A DNA stretch of 45,063 bases from Chloroflexia bacterium (GTDB taxonomy: Bacteria; Chloroflexota; Chloroflexia; Thermomicrobiales; CFX8): the NCBI GenBank assembly GCA_030431755.1, contig JAUIIK010000030.1, forward strand, positions 1 through 45,063, written 5' to 3'. The notes under the pieces are model-generated. The model worked only from the letters and a program-made list of their open reading frames with translations, searched no databases and was not told the origin of the DNA. Position numbers and translations under genes: made by a program. Numbering within the stretch: the stretch's first letter is position 1; the number at the start of each line of letters is the position of its first letter. This document shows, piece after piece, positions 37,099-43,541 of the stretch.

Positions 37099-37130
37099 TG
37101 GTATACTAGGGGAGTGAGAATAATTCTCAC
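37099..37130 (+). promoter_or_regulatory. Extended -10 promoter with perfect Fur/PerR-type box
   Basis: TGGTATACT (37099-37107) is an extended -10 element. Seven bases on lies GTGAGAATAATTCTCAC (37114-37130), a perfect 8-1-8 palindrome containing the 7-1-7 Fur-family pattern TGAGAATnATTCTCA. It covers the expected transcription start of the metal ATPase. A Fur, PerR or Zur protein bound there would block transcription. Which of them it is cannot be decided from the box alone. Confidence 0.65.
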
Positions 37131-37182
37131 TTAGGATGTATTCCTAGTGATTTCGTCGGAATTCTCGTGTCAGGATCGAGTG

Positions 37183-39198
37183 ATGTCTCAAGCAATCGTC
37201 ACCCCTCCAGCCCCCACACGCCGCGCGCCACAATCCGAGAAAGAGAGCCTGTTCGAGCGCTACAGCCTGATGGCGGCAGCGGTGATCACCGCAGTCGCGC
37301 TGGTACTGGGCTGGACGCTAGGCCGGTTGGATCTGATCGGGAACAACGTCGAGATCGGGTTCTATGTCATCGCCTATCTCGCCGGCGGAACCTTCGCAAC
37401 AATTGAAGCGGTCAAGGCGCTGATCGACCGCTCGGTCGAGATCGATCTGCTGATGGTCACGGCCGCGATCGGCGCGGCGATCATCGGCCACTGGACCGAG
37501 GGCGCGATCCTGCTCTTCCTCTTTTCGCTCGGCAATGCCCTTGAACACTACGCCATGGGCCGGACAAAGCGGGCTGTGCAGGCATTGATGGATCTCTCAC
37601 CCGAGGACGCCGTCGTCGTGCGCGGCGGCCAGGAGATGCGCGTGCATATCGACGAGCTCCTGATCGGGGACCACGTCATCGTCCGGCCCGGCGAGCGTAT
37701 CCCGGCCGACGGCACGGTCGAGAGCGGCGAGTCAGGTGTCGATCAGGCGGCTATCACCGGCGAGTCGATGCCGGTCGTCAAACACCGCGGCGACGAGGTC
37801 TTCACCGGGACGATCAACGGCCACGGCGCATTGCAGGTAACCGTCACCCGGCTGGCGCACGAAAGCACCCTGGCGAAAATCATCAAGATCGTCCAGGAAG
37901 CCCAGGATGACAAGTCCCGCACCCAGCGCTTCACCGACCGCTTCGAGGGCGCTTACGCCGTCGGTGTCATCGCAGCGTCGTTGCTCTATCTCGGCGCGCT
38001 CGTCACCATCGGCGGCTTCGACTTTAACGACGCCTTCTATCGCTCGATGATCCTGCTTGTCGTCGCCTCGCCCTGCGCGCTGGTTATCTCGACGCCGGCC
38101 TCAACACTCTCGGCGCTGGCCAACGCCGCCCGCAGCGGCATCCTAGTGAAGGGCGCGGCACAGCTCGAAGATATCGGCGCTGTCGATGTTGTGGCCTTCG
38201 ACAAGACCGGCACGTTGACGGTCGGTAAGCCACGCGTCACTGACCTGCTGCCTGCCGCGGGCGTCGCGGAAGACGAGCTCCTGCGGATTGCCGCATCAGC
38301 AGAACGCATGTCGGAGCATCCACTGGCCGAAGCGATAGTCAACGACGCCCAGCGGCGAGAACTCGAACTCGACGCCGCCGGGGACCTGCAAGCTGTGACG
38401 GGCAAGGGTATCCGCACCTCTATCGCTGGTCAGCCAGTCATCATCGGCAACACCGCGCTTCTGGATGACTACGCCGTTGCCGGAGACCCAGCCCTGTTTG
38501 ACCGCGCCACGGCGCTGCGCGAGCAGGCTAAGACGGTGATGTTTGTGGCGCAGGAGCGTGGTGGCGAGTTCAGGCTGCTCGGGGCCATCGCAGTCGCCGA
38601 CACCGTCCGCCCGCAAGCCAGGGCTGTCATCGACAGGTTGCACGAGATCGGCATCAGCAAGACATTGATCCTGACCGGCGACAACGAACGCTCAGCACGC
38701 GCTGTCGCCAACCAGCTCGGTATTGACGACGTGACCGCCGAACTGCTGCCCGCTCAGAAGCTCGACGCGATCGAGGCGCTCAAGCGCGAGCACGGCACGG
38801 TCGTTATGGTCGGCGATGGCGTCAACGATGCGCCGGCGCTGGCGAGAGCATCTATCGGTGTTGCCATGGGCGCGGCCGGCAGTGATGTCGCGCTGGAGAC
38901 CGCCGACATCGTCCTGATGGCCGACGACCTCGGCAAACTGCCATACATCGTCGAGCTAAGCCGCAAGACACGCGGCATCATCCGCCAGAATCTCGGCTTC
39001 GCGCTTTCAGTCATCGCGGTGCTCGTAACCGGCACAGTCCTGGGCATCACCACCCTGCCGCTCGGCGTCGTCGGACACGAAGGCAGCACGATCATCGTCG
39101 TCCTAAACGGCCTCCGGCTGCTCCGAGGCGTGCCATTGCCCACGCTTGCGCCAACCGTCGCTCGCCCGGCGCTGGAGCCTGTCGCCGCGGGGGACTAA
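37183..39198 (+). CDS. P1B-4-type heavy-metal (Fe/Co/Zn) efflux ATPase
   Basis: ATG 37183 is chosen for AGGA seven bases upstream; GTG 37147 is also in frame. The 671-residue pump has TGES, the phosphorylated Asp340 in DKTGT, the SEHP loop and GDGVND. Its membrane metal site is SPC, with HEGST in the last helices, the mark of the P1B-4 group (CoaT, CtpD, PfeT). There is no N-terminal metal-binding domain, as is usual for this group. The Fur/PerR-type box in front recalls PerR-controlled PfeT, so Fe(II) export is the best guess; Co or Zn remain possible. A terminator follows at 39227. Confidence 0.9.
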   Translation: MSQAIVTPPAPTRRAPQSEKESLFERYSLMAAAVITAVALVLGWTLGRLDLIGNNVEIGFYVIAYLAGGTFATIEAVKALIDRSVEIDLLMVTAAIGAAIIGHWTEGAILLFLFSLGNALEHYAMGRTKRAVQALMDLSPEDAVVVRGGQEMRVHIDELLIGDHVIVRPGERIPADGTVESGESGVDQAAITGESMPVVKHRGDEVFTGTINGHGALQVTVTRLAHESTLAKIIKIVQEAQDDKSRTQRFTDRFEGAYAVGVIAASLLYLGALVTIGGFDFNDAFYRSMILLVVASPCALVISTPASTLSALANAARSGILVKGAAQLEDIGAVDVVAFDKTGTLTVGKPRVTDLLPAAGVAEDELLRIAASAERMSEHPLAEAIVNDAQRRELELDAAGDLQAVTGKGIRTSIAGQPVIIGNTALLDDYAVAGDPALFDRATALREQAKTVMFVAQERGGEFRLLGAIAVADTVRPQARAVIDRLHEIGISKTLILTGDNERSARAVANQLGIDDVTAELLPAQKLDAIEALKREHGTVVMVGDGVNDAPALARASIGVAMGAAGSDVALETADIVLMADDLGKLPYIVELSRKTRGIIRQNLGFALSVIAVLVTGTVLGITTLPLGVVGHEGSTIIVVLNGLRLLRGVPLPTLAPTVARPALEPVAAGD

Positions 39199-39335: not shown

Positions 39336-39896
39336 GTGAACGAGGCTGCTGCCTACCGCGAGATGATTCAGACGGCATCGGACGCTATCACGGCACGCGT
39401 TGAGGAGGTGCCGGCAGACAAGCTGCACGCGCGGCCCGGGGACGGCTTGAACCCCGTCGGCTGGAACTACTGGCACGCATTGCGTGTCTGGGATCTCGAC
39501 ATCAACTGGTTGATCAATGGCCAGGACCCGGCCGAAGACGCCTGGCACCGTGGCGGCTTCTCCGAGAAATCCGGCTACAACCCCGACGGCATCGGCATGC
39601 GCGGCCTGGGCATCGGGCTCGGCTATAGCGACGCCGAAGTCGACGCGTTGGGTGTCATCAGCTACGAGTCCATGAAGGAGTACCACGAACAGCTCCTGGC
39701 TGAGACGCTGACCTACCTGGACAACGCCAGTGATGACGAGCTCCGGCGCACGTTCGAGGCGCTCGGTGGCCGCGGCGAAACCAGCCCGGCCGCCCGGCTC
39801 CAGCACCTCGTCAACCACACCTGGGGCCACATCGGCGAGCTCAGCTACGCCAAGGGCATGCTCGGCATGACGGACGGCACCTATCCGGGGAGTTGA
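39336..39896 (+). CDS. DinB-superfamily protein, tandem copy 1
   Basis: GTG 39336 follows AGGAGGAG. The 186-residue four-helix-bundle protein has the DinB metal histidines: His in NYWHALRVWDLDINWL and the pair HTWGHIGELSYAKGML. DinB-fold proteins bind a divalent metal and act as thiol-dependent transferases or have unknown roles. It ends in the motif MLGMTDGTYPG shared with copies 2, 3 and 5. It is the most divergent copy of the six at the N-terminus, lacking the PASFIYFHVLRHW form. Confidence 0.85.
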   Translation: MNEAAAYREMIQTASDAITARVEEVPADKLHARPGDGLNPVGWNYWHALRVWDLDINWLINGQDPAEDAWHRGGFSEKSGYNPDGIGMRGLGIGLGYSDAEVDALGVISYESMKEYHEQLLAETLTYLDNASDDELRRTFEALGGRGETSPAARLQHLVNHTWGHIGELSYAKGMLGMTDGTYPGS

Positions 39897-39904
39897 GGAA
39901 TTGG

Positions 39905-40150
39905 GAGAAGAGAGTTTGTAGTGAGTAGGTTGTAGTTTGTAGGGGGAGTGGGGAGCGGGATATTCCCTCACCCCCGGCCGCGACCCGCTACGCGGGTGCC
40001 CCGCCCACTGCTGCGCGGGGAGAGGGGGGTGGAGCCAGGGAATAGGTTTTAGGTTGTAGGTTTTAGCAGAACAGACACCGCAGCCACATTTCTACGCGTC
40101 CCCTGCCTTGCTCCCCTCTCCCCGCGCAGCAGGTCGCGGCCGGGGGTGAT
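39905..40150. repeat. Compound palindromic repeat between DinB copies 1 and 2
   Basis: CACCCCCGGCCGCGACC (39970-39986) is matched by GGTCGCGGCCGGGGGTG (40132-40148) as inverted arms. Nested inside are CGCGGGGAGAGG/CCTCTCCCCGCG-type arms. Direct repeats of GTAGGTTGTAG type lie at both 39915-39940 and 40050-40065. No gene lies in 39897-40171. It is related in build to 30215-30338 and 31930-32155. Confidence 0.6.
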
Positions 40151-40171
40151 GGAATTCGAAAGGACCAAGCC

Positions 40172-40738
40172 ATGAACGAGATCGAAATCTATCGCACGAT
40201 GGTCGACCAGGCGGGCAGCTTGCTGACTCGGACCGTTGACGACATCGACGGGGAGAACTTCGGCAAACGGCCCGGGGAGCACATGAACCCGGCGAGCTTT
40301 ATCTACTTCCATGTTCTGCGCCATTGGGACCGGGATATCAACGTCCTCAGCCGGGGCCAGGCGCCGGATGCCGATCTCTGGCACCGCGAGGGCATCGGCG
40401 ATGCGCTCGGCTATCATCCGCTCGGCACCGGCCTGCGTGGACTTGGCACCGGCATCGGCTACAGCGATGCCGAGGTCGACGCCGTTCCGGCCGACCGCGA
40501 GACGCTGGCGCGCTATCAGCAACTGCTTCACGCCGAGACGATGGCCTACCTCGATGAGCTGGACGAAGCCGACATCCACACCGAGATGACCAGCGAGTAC
40601 CTGCCGGACGTCACCTACGATCTCGCGGCGCGCTTGCAGCATCTGGTCATGCACACGGCCTATCACACCGGCGACATCTCCTACGTCAAAGGCGCGCTCG
40701 GCCAGCCGGATGCGACCTATGGCGGCCAGGGTGATTAG
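40172..40738 (+). CDS. DinB-superfamily protein, tandem copy 2
   Basis: ATG 40172 is behind AAAGGA. The 188-residue protein has the metal-type histidines in FIYFHVLRHWDRDINVL and MHTAYHTGDISYVKG, and ends GALGQPDATYGG. It is closest to copy 3, sharing ALGQPDATY and the GYSDAEVDAVPADR block. There is no signal peptide. It was probably born by duplication within the array. No substrate can be inferred. Confidence 0.87.
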   Translation: MNEIEIYRTMVDQAGSLLTRTVDDIDGENFGKRPGEHMNPASFIYFHVLRHWDRDINVLSRGQAPDADLWHREGIGDALGYHPLGTGLRGLGTGIGYSDAEVDAVPADRETLARYQQLLHAETMAYLDELDEADIHTEMTSEYLPDVTYDLAARLQHLVMHTAYHTGDISYVKGALGQPDATYGGQGD

Positions 40739-40815
40739 GAGGGGTTAGGGGATAGCAGATCAAATGCCAGTTCTATCTCCTCCAGGTACACAGCGAAGTA
40801 GTAGGAGAGGGGTTC

Positions 40816-41385
40816 ATGGACGAGTTTGGCGTCTACCGACAGATGATCGAGCAGGTCAGCGGGCTGCTACGGCGGACCGTTGACGAGTTCGACGAGGCGC
40901 ACTTTAGCAAGCGCCCTGGTCCATCGTTGAACCCGGCCAGCTTCATCTACTTCCACGTCCTCCGCCACTGGGAGCGCGACATCAACTGGGTCTGCAAGGG
41001 GCAAGGGCCAAGCACAGACCTCTGGGCGCGCGCCAGGATCGGCGAGCAGATGGGCTACGACCCGCGCGGCATCGGCTGGCGTGGCGTTGGCACGGGCTAT
41101 GGCTACAGCGACGCTGAGGTCGACGCCGTCCCGGCCGACCGTACCGCCCTCAACCACTATCACGATCTGCTGCGCGACGAGACCTGGGCATTCATGAAAC
41201 AACTCGACGGCTTGGACCTCGATGCCCGCATCGTCAACGAGGATTTCCCGGACCAGGGGTATGGCTATAGCATCCGTGAGCGGCATCAGCACCTGATTTT
41301 CCACACCAGCCGCCACGCCGGCGACATCTCGTATGTCAAGGGCGCGCTCGGCCAGCCGGATGCGACGTACGAGGGCAGGGGATAG
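40816..41385 (+). CDS. DinB-superfamily protein, tandem copy 3
   Basis: ATG 40816 follows AGGAGAGGGG. The 189-residue product has histidines in FIYFHVLRHWERDINWV and FHTSRHAGDISYVKG and the shared central block GYSDAEVDAVPADR. Compared with copy 2 it differs in the 60 residues before the last helix. It follows copy 2 after 77 nt that carry no promoter I can recognise, so both may be co-transcribed. Confidence 0.87.
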   Translation: MDEFGVYRQMIEQVSGLLRRTVDEFDEAHFSKRPGPSLNPASFIYFHVLRHWERDINWVCKGQGPSTDLWARARIGEQMGYDPRGIGWRGVGTGYGYSDAEVDAVPADRTALNHYHDLLRDETWAFMKQLDGLDLDARIVNEDFPDQGYGYSIRERHQHLIFHTSRHAGDISYVKGALGQPDATYEGRG

Positions 41386-41421
41386 GTGGCAGGTTACAGG
41401 GTACAGCAGAAGGAGCAGCAA

Positions 41422-41967
41422 GTGGATCAAAAGGAGACGCTCAGGGCGTTGGTTCGTGAGGCATCACAGGATCTGCGGGATACCGTCAAAGAGATCCCGC
41501 AGGAACAGTTCGAGCAGCGGCCGGGACCGGGGTTGAACCCGGCCGGGTTCATCTACTTTCATGTGCTGCGCTGCTGGGATCTCGACGTCAACGTTCTCTG
41601 TCGTGGACAGGAGCGGAACGGCGATGCCTGGCACCGGGGCGGCTTCAGCAACGAACTCGACTACGAACCGCTCGGTTGCGGCATGGGTGGCTCCGGCGTC
41701 GGCTTCGGCTACAGCGACGAGGAAGTCGATGCCGTACCGCAAGCGCAGGCGGCGCTGATGCGCTACCACCAACAGCTCGAAGACGAAACCTACGCCTACT
41801 TCGACAGCGTTAGCATCGACGAGCTCAATCGTGACCGGACGAGCGAGAACTCCCGCGAAAACCCCTTCAAGCCCGAGCGCTGGCTGCGCCACATGATCTC
41901 CCACACCAACATGCACATCGGCGATATCCAGTATGTCGCAGGGATGGTGGAGCGAGGGACTAGCTAG
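41422..41967 (+). CDS. DinB-superfamily protein, tandem copy 4
   Basis: I place the start at GTG 41422 because AAGGAG lies upstream and the product then begins VDQKETLRALV, like copy 5 (VDQRETLGLLV). The in-frame GTG 41386 lies in a short spacer repeat. The 181-residue protein keeps FIYFHVLRCWDLDVNVL and SHTNMHIGDIQYV, but lacks the usual ALGQPDATY end and stops at ERGTS. A MITE-like element begins in its stop codon, so the tail may have been altered by that insertion. Confidence 0.85.
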   Translation: MDQKETLRALVREASQDLRDTVKEIPQEQFEQRPGPGLNPAGFIYFHVLRCWDLDVNVLCRGQERNGDAWHRGGFSNELDYEPLGCGMGGSGVGFGYSDEEVDAVPQAQAALMRYHQQLEDETYAYFDSVSIDELNRDRTSENSRENPFKPERWLRHMISHTNMHIGDIQYVAGMVERGTS

Positions 41968-42197
41968 TGGTCTGTGACACATGATTTGATCGACAACCGG
42001 GCGCTTCCTGGATAACACAACAAGCATTATGCTTGTCATTTCGAGCGGGGACCCACGGCGTGGGTGCGAGAAATCTCAGTCGAACACCAGTGACGGGCTG
42101 CACTGAGATTTCTCTCGCTGGTCGAAATGACAATTTCATTGCTGATGAGTGCCCGGCGAAGCGAGACGATTCCTTCACTTCACATGTCACACAGCAC
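41967..42197. repeat. MITE-like imperfect palindrome of about 231 bp
   Basis: The ends GTGGTCTGTGACACATG (41967-41983) and CACATGTCACACAGCAC (42181-42197) are inverted copies matching at 13 of 17 positions. An inner pair starts TTGTCATTTCGAG (42033) and ends CGAAATGACAA (up to 42133), enclosing GAGAAATCTCAG and its inverse. There is no gene. It begins exactly at the end of copy 4, as its relative at 10547 begins exactly at the end of the toxin gene. It fills the gap 41968-42220. Confidence 0.65.
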
Positions 42198-42220
42198 AAA
42201 GGTGACAGGGGATAACAGAA

Positions 42221-42802
42221 GTGGATCAGCGGGAGACATTGGGGCTGCTCGTGGAGCAATCGTCCGGACATCTGCGGTGGGCGGTTGAGACGGTTCCCGA
42301 CGAACTCTTCGGGAGGCGGCCAGGGCCGCACCTGAACTCGATTGGCTTCATCTACTTTCACGTTTCGCGCCACTGGGATTGGGACATGAACATCCTCTGC
42401 CGGGGGCAATCACTCGAATCGGACCTCTGGCATCGTAGCGGTCTCAGCGAAGGGATGGGCTCCGAGCCGCTTGGCATCGGGATCGCTGGACGCGGCATGG
42501 GCGTTGGCTACAACGATGCCGAGGTCGACGCCGTGCCGTCAGCGCCAGATGTCCTCGCCGGCTACCACCGCGCACTGGAAGCCGAAAGTGCCGCCTATCT
42601 CCGCACGACGACCGAGTCCGACCTGAACGCGGAGATCGAGCACGAGCAGGCGCGCATCAACCCTTACACCCGTGAGAGCCGCATCCGCAACGTCATCCTC
42701 CACAACGCCGAGCACTTCGGCGACATCCTCTACGTCAAAGGCATGCTCGGGATGCACGATGCGACCTACCCAGGTCCTGGAGCAGAACCCGAGAGCGCAT
42801 AG
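42221..42802 (+). CDS. DinB-superfamily protein, tandem copy 5
   Basis: GTG 42221 opens a 193-residue protein beginning VDQRETLGLL. Metal-type histidines appear in FIYFHVSRHWDWDMNIL and LHNAEHFGDILYVKG, and the end is MLGMHDATYPG plus a short tail. The central block is GYNDAEVDAVPSA. It is close to copy 4 at the start and to copy 1 at the end, suggesting exchange between copies. Confidence 0.86.
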   Translation: MDQRETLGLLVEQSSGHLRWAVETVPDELFGRRPGPHLNSIGFIYFHVSRHWDWDMNILCRGQSLESDLWHRSGLSEGMGSEPLGIGIAGRGMGVGYNDAEVDAVPSAPDVLAGYHRALEAESAAYLRTTTESDLNAEIEHEQARINPYTRESRIRNVILHNAEHFGDILYVKGMLGMHDATYPGPGAEPESA

Positions 42803-42862
42803 CCCGGCGGACACGTTCACCAACATCGACGCTACACTCTGAGGAAACCTGTGCGCGGCCTC

Positions 42863-42936
42863 GTAGGGGTGGAGTTCATCTCCACCCGCTGACGCAAACA
42901 AACCGCAAGACGGGTGGAGACGAGCTCCACCCCTAC
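42863..42936. repeat. Inverted repeat, GTAGGGGTGGAG family
   Basis: The arms 42863-42888 and 42911-42936 match as inverted copies at 24 of 26 positions (start GTAGGGGTGGAGTTCATCTC), around a 22-nt loop. Size, loop length and ends equal those of the element at 36321, but the stems differ by paired G-to-A type changes, so the stem is kept while sequence drifts. Confidence 0.8.
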
Positions 42937-42986
42937 GAAACCGTGCCGTCTTCAGTCACAGTGGACACTACTCGTAAGGGACAACG

Positions 42987-43541
42987 ATGACCGAATTGAG
43001 CGCCTACGGGCACATGATCGACGGAGCGTCCGGCAATTTGCGGGATGCGGTAGCGGTCGTCAGCGCCGATGATTTCGGCAAGCGGCCCGCGCCGGGAGCG
43101 AATCCGGTCCATTTCATCTACTTCCACGTCCTGCGCCACTGGGATCGGGATATCAACGTCTACTGCAAGCAGGAACCGCCGGCCCAGGACGCCTGGCACC
43201 GTCACGGACTCAGCGAGGCGCTCGACTACGAACCGCTTGACATCGGCACTGACGGCATCGGGACCGGCTACGGCTACAGCGCTGAAGAGGTCGATGGCCT
43301 GCCACTCGACGCTGAAGGGCTCGGACGCTACCACGACATCCTGCTGGAGGAGACCCATGCCTATCTCGCGAGCCTCGACACCGCGACCTTCGACGACCCA
43401 AAGGAGTTTGAGGGCCGTAGCTACACCATCGGCCAGCGGCTGCGCCATCTGGTAGCCCACACCTACCTCCACCTCGGCGACATCGAGTACGCCAAGGGCT
43501 TGCTCGGCGCGCCGGCCGGCGATTTTCCGACATTGAGCTAG
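42987..43541 (+). CDS. DinB-superfamily protein, tandem copy 6
   Basis: ATG 42987 follows TAAGGGA. The 184-residue protein has FIYFHVLRHWDRDINVY and AHTYLHLGDIEYAKGLLG with the conserved histidines, and the centre GYGYSAEEVDGLPLD. It is the last of the array and lies 12 nt before the carboxyltransferase gene, so it may share a transcript with a catabolic gene. Confidence 0.86.
   Translation: MTELSAYGHMIDGASGNLRDAVAVVSADDFGKRPAPGANPVHFIYFHVLRHWDRDINVYCKQEPPAQDAWHRHGLSEALDYEPLDIGTDGIGTGYGYSAEEVDGLPLDAEGLGRYHDILLEETHAYLASLDTATFDDPKEFEGRSYTIGQRLRHLVAHTYLHLGDIEYAKGLLGAPAGDFPTLS

Follow-up and report, generated by a model that had tools for sequence, protein, structure and literature searches.

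The gene for a P1B-4 metal pump in the 45,063-nucleotide stretch of Chloroflexia DNA analysed here (hereafter, the window) is preceded by a perfect Fur/PerR-type palindrome, and this palindrome very probably serves as the switch for a PerR-like repressor that in relatives also acts on Fe-S assembly genes. In our judgement the module is rather likely of the PfeT/PmtA kind, with an Fe(II)-exporting P1B-4 pump under a tandem FurA operator, released by peroxide together with furA-suf and the gene for a small membrane protein, P23. What is new here, as read from the sequence, is a PerR-like regulator that heads suf and whose predicted tandem operator is also found at the pump.

Results and discussion

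A probable tandem Fur-family operator at the pump promoter

The predicted primary operator, GTGAGAATAATTCTCAC, lies at positions 37114-37130 of the plus strand (15-mer core 37115-37129) and is assigned on the basis of sequence and conservation. Its 7-1-7 palindrome is perfect and extended by one flanking pair, and at 25.6 bits the site ranks first in the window in the PWM scan. The predicted extended -10 element of the pump promoter, TGgTATACT (37099-37107, plus strand), stands just 5' of it, and in orthologous promoters, hexamers resembling a -10 element are found about as far from the box. No good -35 element could be read in the window sequence at 16-18 bp from TGgTATACT. Relative to the predicted transcription start the box spans about -1 to +17. 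The first-pass annotation, which had described a perfect palindrome obeying the Fur-family 7-1-7 rule and overlying the start region of an extended -10 promoter, was thus correct on both counts. The pump promoter accordingly has a PerR/Fur-type operator, as expected from PfeT, in the form of a 15-bp 7-1-7 inverted repeat that recurs at other targets of the family.

Long sequences yield AT-rich palindromes by chance, and the element could in principle be a fortuitous dyad, or a hairpin or terminator, that is devoid of regulatory meaning. However, 100 shuffles gave a mean expectation of 0.02 matches in the window, where the site was the sole match with up to three mismatches, seen on both strands. 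A scan of the genome for the box, as the first-pass annotation had suggested, returned exactly one perfect copy of TGAGAATNATTCTCA in the whole 5.15-Mb assembly (272 contigs), namely the pump site, and 51 places with up to three mismatches versus 18 for the reversed control. The dyad also shows position-specific conservation at pump orthologues and recurs in furA, iscR and P23 promoters, as detailed below. Shuffles and comparative conservation together rule out a chance palindrome, to which we assign a practically negligible probability.

A weaker element, TAGGATGTATTCCTA, is present at 37132-37146 (plus strand), 17 bp downstream of the primary operator, and was absent from the first-pass annotation. 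Its score of 4.2 bits is reached by about 1.1e-4 (0.011%) of window positions. When a symmetrised matrix built from 40 distinct sites was applied to 77 promoters, repeated second sites appeared only at offsets of -6, +6, +17 and -17, plus a few at +23. TAGGATGTATTCCTA sits at exactly +17 and hence in register with the layout of the regulon, and pairs spaced by 17 bp also occur in the window genome at furA (L016) and P23 (L023). We regard it as a probable second FurA dimer site, half-degenerate and weak.

Conservation of the box at pump orthologues

Orthologues of the pump (E <= 1e-150) are encoded in 37 of the 61 genomes of the order. Box counts refer to 590 bases around the start in the 36 orthologues outside the window genome, i.e., the 40 pump rows minus the paralogues L019, L024 and L025 and the duplicate L134, to which the window is added; a truncated pump of genome G009 that has the box (L132) fell below the score cut and was left out. 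With up to three mismatches the box was found at 24/36 orthologues, while the reversed pattern gave none and shuffles gave a mean of 0.43 and a maximum of 3. At up to two mismatches the count was 12/36 and at up to one mismatch 8/36, the latter against 0 in shuffles. In the pump promoters displayed in our promoter alignment, the box follows closely 3' of the -10 element. These results support the palindrome as a real Fur-family operator that is conserved at the pump; 12 of the 37 pumps are boxless.

The common variant in family f4, TGCGAATAGGACTCATTCTCA, can be read as two overlapping 7-1-7 units with an offset of 6. Sites of this kind (TAGGACT variant) are found at the named loci L063 (Sphaerobacter sp.) and L064/L065 (Thermomicrobiaceae), and save for these three, no convincing box was seen within 500 bp upstream in 66 named loci beyond the order. 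A class-wide scan of 158 genomes showed that the box occurs in other families, too.

Further genes carrying the box

A blind scan of the 61 genomes allowing one mismatch yielded 39 sites in 29 genomes and 0 control sites. Fourteen of these belong to furA-suf, ten to the pump (including the truncated one in G009), seven to iscR and two to P23; one, in G011, precedes what is probably another pump, at the end of a contig. The remaining five belong to none of these genes, two being inside open reading frames and three unassigned. At all seven iscR sites an Rrf2/IscR gene is followed by a cysteine-desulfurase-like gene (iscR-iscS). At the iscR orthologue of the window genome (L240) no box was seen. 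Neither was a catalase, peroxidase or miniferritin gene (katA/ahpCF/mrgA-type) met among the box sites examined.

P23 is a hydrophobic membrane protein of 185 amino acids, encoded on the minus strand at L023:4595-5152 (genome G000, contig C236) behind a tandem FurA box. Orthologues (L229-L239) are present in 11/61 genomes, and of the ten whose upstream region is long enough to judge, nine show the box at up to three mismatches. The protein features an apparent internal repeat (H-LYWL...DYTEIP / HIFWIT...DYLELP) with invariant His, Asp and Glu residues. It matched no Pfam or NCBIfam model, and a comparison with solved structures returned nothing at E <= 1. We propose P23 as a candidate iron-handling membrane protein.

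FurA as the likely reader of the box

Three Fur-family genes, furA, furB and furC, are present in the genome. Behind the furA gene (C1:9363-9833, minus strand) come sufC and two SufB/SufD-type genes, so that furA heads a sufCBD operon; two sites 17 bp apart reside directly upstream of furA. Among solved structures, FurA aligns best with PerR of B. subtilis (2fe3). It contains the five PerR metal ligands (three His and two Asp), which we take to be equivalent to BsPerR H37, D85, H91, H93 and D104, along with four zinc cysteines, and all of these are kept in 43/43 other orthologues. The PerR models of NCBIfam were the best for FurA, with a score of 98.6 bits that is under the equivalog cut-off of 180, and by this model FurA is to be classed as PerR-like and not as a PerR equivalog.

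All 44 furA promoters carry the box with up to four mismatches (shuffles: mean 3.02, maximum 7) and 32/44 with up to two (shuffles: 0.03). Clear FurA orthologues (at least 46% identity over most of the length) are found in 43 genomes, the window genome included, and two of the 44 furA genes, L225 and L226, are divergent (36-38% identity). The box count excludes the FurA of G040 and the partial copies in G054 and G033. Note that some furA loci were first fetched via the box search; those fetched through the protein family only (e.g., L209-L213 and L215-L224) are boxed as well. FurA is therefore the likely reader of the pump box.

A different reading would be that the box is read by a classical iron-sensing Fur, i.e., FurB or FurC, which would switch the pump on or off according to iron alone. 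Another of the three Fur-family proteins could indeed bind the same sequence, as Fur and PerR boxes are described in a passage of PMC3293774 as near identical, with six identical nucleotides per heptamer, and B. subtilis Fur is stated to activate pfeT in PMC9993123. On the other hand, none of the 15 furB/furC genes has the box as opposed to 44/44 for furA, which led us to reject FurB and FurC as its autoregulated owners, and FurC is nearest to the 3eyy (iron-uptake-regulator-like protein) and 2o03 (zinc regulator FurB of another organism) chains. In addition, from its place on the start site the box should serve a repressor, and an exporter turned off by iron would work against the cell. We consider control by FurB or FurC unlikely.

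This reading could also draw on the observation that FurA was not found in 6/25 assemblies with a boxed pump. More generally, FurA presence has no predictive value for the pump box, with 19/25 boxed versus 9/12 boxless genomes positive when one divergent and two partial copies are counted; in two of the nine boxless genomes FurA is present only as fragments. However, in five of the six boxed genomes in question sufC is missing as well, and the sixth (G034) has the start of its sufC 45 bases away from the edge of a contig, so the missing furA genes probably reflect assembly gaps and we do not regard them as counter-evidence against FurA. One of the six genomes, G058, is nevertheless 98% complete.

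The pump and its probable cargo

The pump gene (37183-39198, plus strand) encodes a metal-exporting P-type ATPase of 671 amino acids. A GTG at 37147 is a possible alternative start, and the ATG at 37183 is preferred because it is preceded by AGGA. The protein contains E1-E2_ATPase and Hydrolase domains, matches models for heavy-metal P-type ATPases and has the catalytic motifs DKTGT, TGES and GDGVNDAP. It has no HMA match, in keeping with the lack of a classical N-terminal metal-binding domain in P1B-4 pumps. SPC (S296-P297-C298) is located in TM4 and HEGST (residues 632-636) in TM6, and both motifs are invariant in 36/36 orthologues. Among solved structures it comes closest to 7qbz (E 1.9e-157 over residues 32-647), in our reading the P1B-4 ATPase sCoaT. 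E106 of the window pump aligns with the exit-path residue E120 of that protein and is kept in at least 35/36 orthologues. The assignment as a P1B-4 pump with SPC and HEGST, made in the first-pass annotation, therefore stands.

Downstream of the pump, six DinB_2-family genes follow one another, all with the same orientation (window positions 39336-43541, plus strand), pointing to a local tandem expansion. In family f4 pumps, among them the Sphaerobacter-like orthologue L035:1078-3480, there is an N-terminal HMA-like extension, which is unusual for P1B-4 ATPases, and in several f4 relatives the box precedes the conserved pump core by about 280-470 bp.

The pump is the only one with SPC and HEGST that was found in the genome. 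The nearest other P1B-type pump, encoded on C142 (47% identity), carries a CPC motif and an HMA domain, and its gene directly follows an ArsR gene; CPC and CPH motifs are found in further P1B-type pumps, on C244 and C125, and a pump fragment on C5 ends before its TM4, with a TM6 region that reads like that of the C142 protein. The ArsR-linked CPC pump with its HMA domain (L019:4925-7755, counting the ArsR gene) is probably the Zn/Cd exporter of the genome, and as these metals would thus be covered by a separate protein, a Zn/Cd function is less likely for the window pump.

In principle, the window pump could still export cobalt or zinc, the FurA box then serving to guard Fe-S clusters against poisoning by these metals rather than to control iron export. 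The metal cannot be read from P1B-4 motifs, and PMC8880997 ascribes the broadest cargo range to P1B-4 pumps and describes sCoaT, the closest solved relative, with zinc/cadmium; PmtA of S. suis exports both Fe(II) and Co(II) according to a statement in PMC7012047, and the HMA domain of family f4 relatives such as L035 could be seen in the same light. Against this, the pump is accompanied by signs of iron and Fe-S regulators (the FurA box and an IscR-like dyad) and not by ArsR or MerR genes, and the genome has its separate ArsR-linked CPC pump. Cobalt or zinc as the cargo proper is, in our estimate, rather unlikely. Since the box is common to the pump and Fe-S assembly genes, we consider it most likely that the pump exports iron upon peroxide damage, expelling Fe(II) and perhaps also Co(II).

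An IscR-like dyad at boxless pumps

The pattern ATNYYGAC-N7-GTCRRNAT occurs with up to three mismatches in 10/12 boxless pump promoters (shuffles: 1.88), and with up to one mismatch in 5/12 (shuffles: 0.05) versus 0/25 boxed ones. The dyad, ATTCCGAC-N7-GTCGGAAT, takes the place of the FurA box at L043-L047, L052, L053, L062, L204 and L206. It resembles type-1 sites of IscR, for which the consensus ATASYYGACTRWWWYAGTCRRSTAT was taken from a passage of PMC6599224. The core YYGAC-N7-GTCRR is present with up to three mismatches in those same ten promoters, while the full 25-bp consensus shows 6-10 mismatches, and unlike IscR type-1 sites, the dyad at boxless pumps is not A+T-rich in its middle. 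Because of this likeness, iron is again indicated. In the window, a weak and tentative ATTCC..GGAAT dyad at 37140-37162 (plus strand) has two mismatches to the pattern and is similar to the IscR-type-1-like element of the boxless orthologues; taken alone it is not significant, as such a dyad was observed at 1/25 boxed pumps with 0.60 expected from shuffles.

In family f4, promoters of furA and iscR (L172, L140 and L142 among them) have TTGACGAATYCCGA...GGTAAGGTA in common between -35 and -10. It is likely an Rrf2/IscR site, placed 5' of the FurA box in suf and isc promoters. A type-1 site of P. aeruginosa IscR is placed between -35 and -10 in PMC6599224, just as here.

Proposed mechanism

Metal-loaded FurA dimers would occupy the strong palindrome at 37114-37130 and block transcription, probably with cooperative binding to the weaker site 17 bp downstream. 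Peroxide would oxidize iron-loaded FurA, causing it to leave the operator, and the pump, FurA with the sufCBD operon, and P23 would be derepressed together, such that iron freed from damaged Fe-S clusters could be exported while the clusters are rebuilt. FurA binding, repression, cooperativity, the peroxide signal and the iron cargo are all inferred from sequence and comparison. A PerR-type regulator is favoured over Fur because iron-loaded Fur would shut off export in iron excess and because the regulator whose gene shares the box has all PerR ligands; a PerR-type repressor that is iron-loaded and inactivated by peroxide would explain why the pump and suf genes are released together. Peroxide induction of the pump is the weakest step, since neither catalase nor peroxidase genes were among the box sites examined. 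Fur/PerR-controlled iron efflux, which the first-pass annotation had thought likely, thus gains support from the conserved box and the PerR ligands of FurA.

On a broader scale, we see an even chance that in Thermomicrobiales-like Chloroflexota a PerR-type regulator, encoded by the first suf gene, was rewired from peroxide defence to Fe-S homeostasis and acts through a 17-bp tandem operator on suf, on iscR-iscS in some genera, on the iron exporter and on a small, maybe iron-handling, membrane protein, with a swap to an IscR-like operator in sister genera. Our searches of open-access literature brought up no such regulon in Chloroflexota. The proposal provides a testable regulon for a poorly studied phylum, in which Fe-S cluster assembly and iron export would be placed under one PerR-like repressor, with the logic that cluster repair and the removal of liberated iron rise together. 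The box can serve as a motif when iron regulation is annotated in Chloroflexota, and P23 is a candidate for a new iron-related membrane protein. The same pump gene appears to have undergone an operator swap between two families of iron-sensing regulators and, if our reading of the dyad is true, sister genera run the same pump through an Fe-S sensor.

Comparison with known systems

One close parallel is PfeT of B. subtilis, a PerR-repressed and Fur-activated P1B-4 Fe(II) efflux ATPase. Its control by PerR, to which the first-pass annotation had pointed, is stated in PMC9993123. In both cases a P1B-4 pump resides behind a 7-1-7 Fur-family operator in a genome encoding a PerR-type regulator, here with all five ligands. 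In contrast to the situation for PfeT, the PerR-type regulator here heads a suf operon, the box also marks suf, P23 and, in relatives, isc regulator genes, two 15-mers are spaced by 17 bp, and peroxide-defence genes are lacking among the sites examined. The PmtA proteins of S. pyogenes and S. suis are likewise SPC and HEGST pumps; passages in PMC7012047 report PerR control for the former and state that the latter is not under PerR. They stem from a different phylum, whereas the operators described here are conserved over an order of Chloroflexota. The Sulfitobacter P1B-4 ATPase sCoaT (PDB 7qbz/7qc0) shares with the window pump S and C of SPC, H and E of HEGST and the exit-path glutamate, and differs in its description with zinc/cadmium (PMC8880997). 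In S. mutans, PerR represses suf (sufCDSUB) according to an excerpt of PMC11631912, so that there, too, a PerR-type repressor acts on suf; in the system proposed here, unlike in S. mutans, the suf cluster begins with the regulator gene itself, whose predicted operator is also found at the efflux pump.
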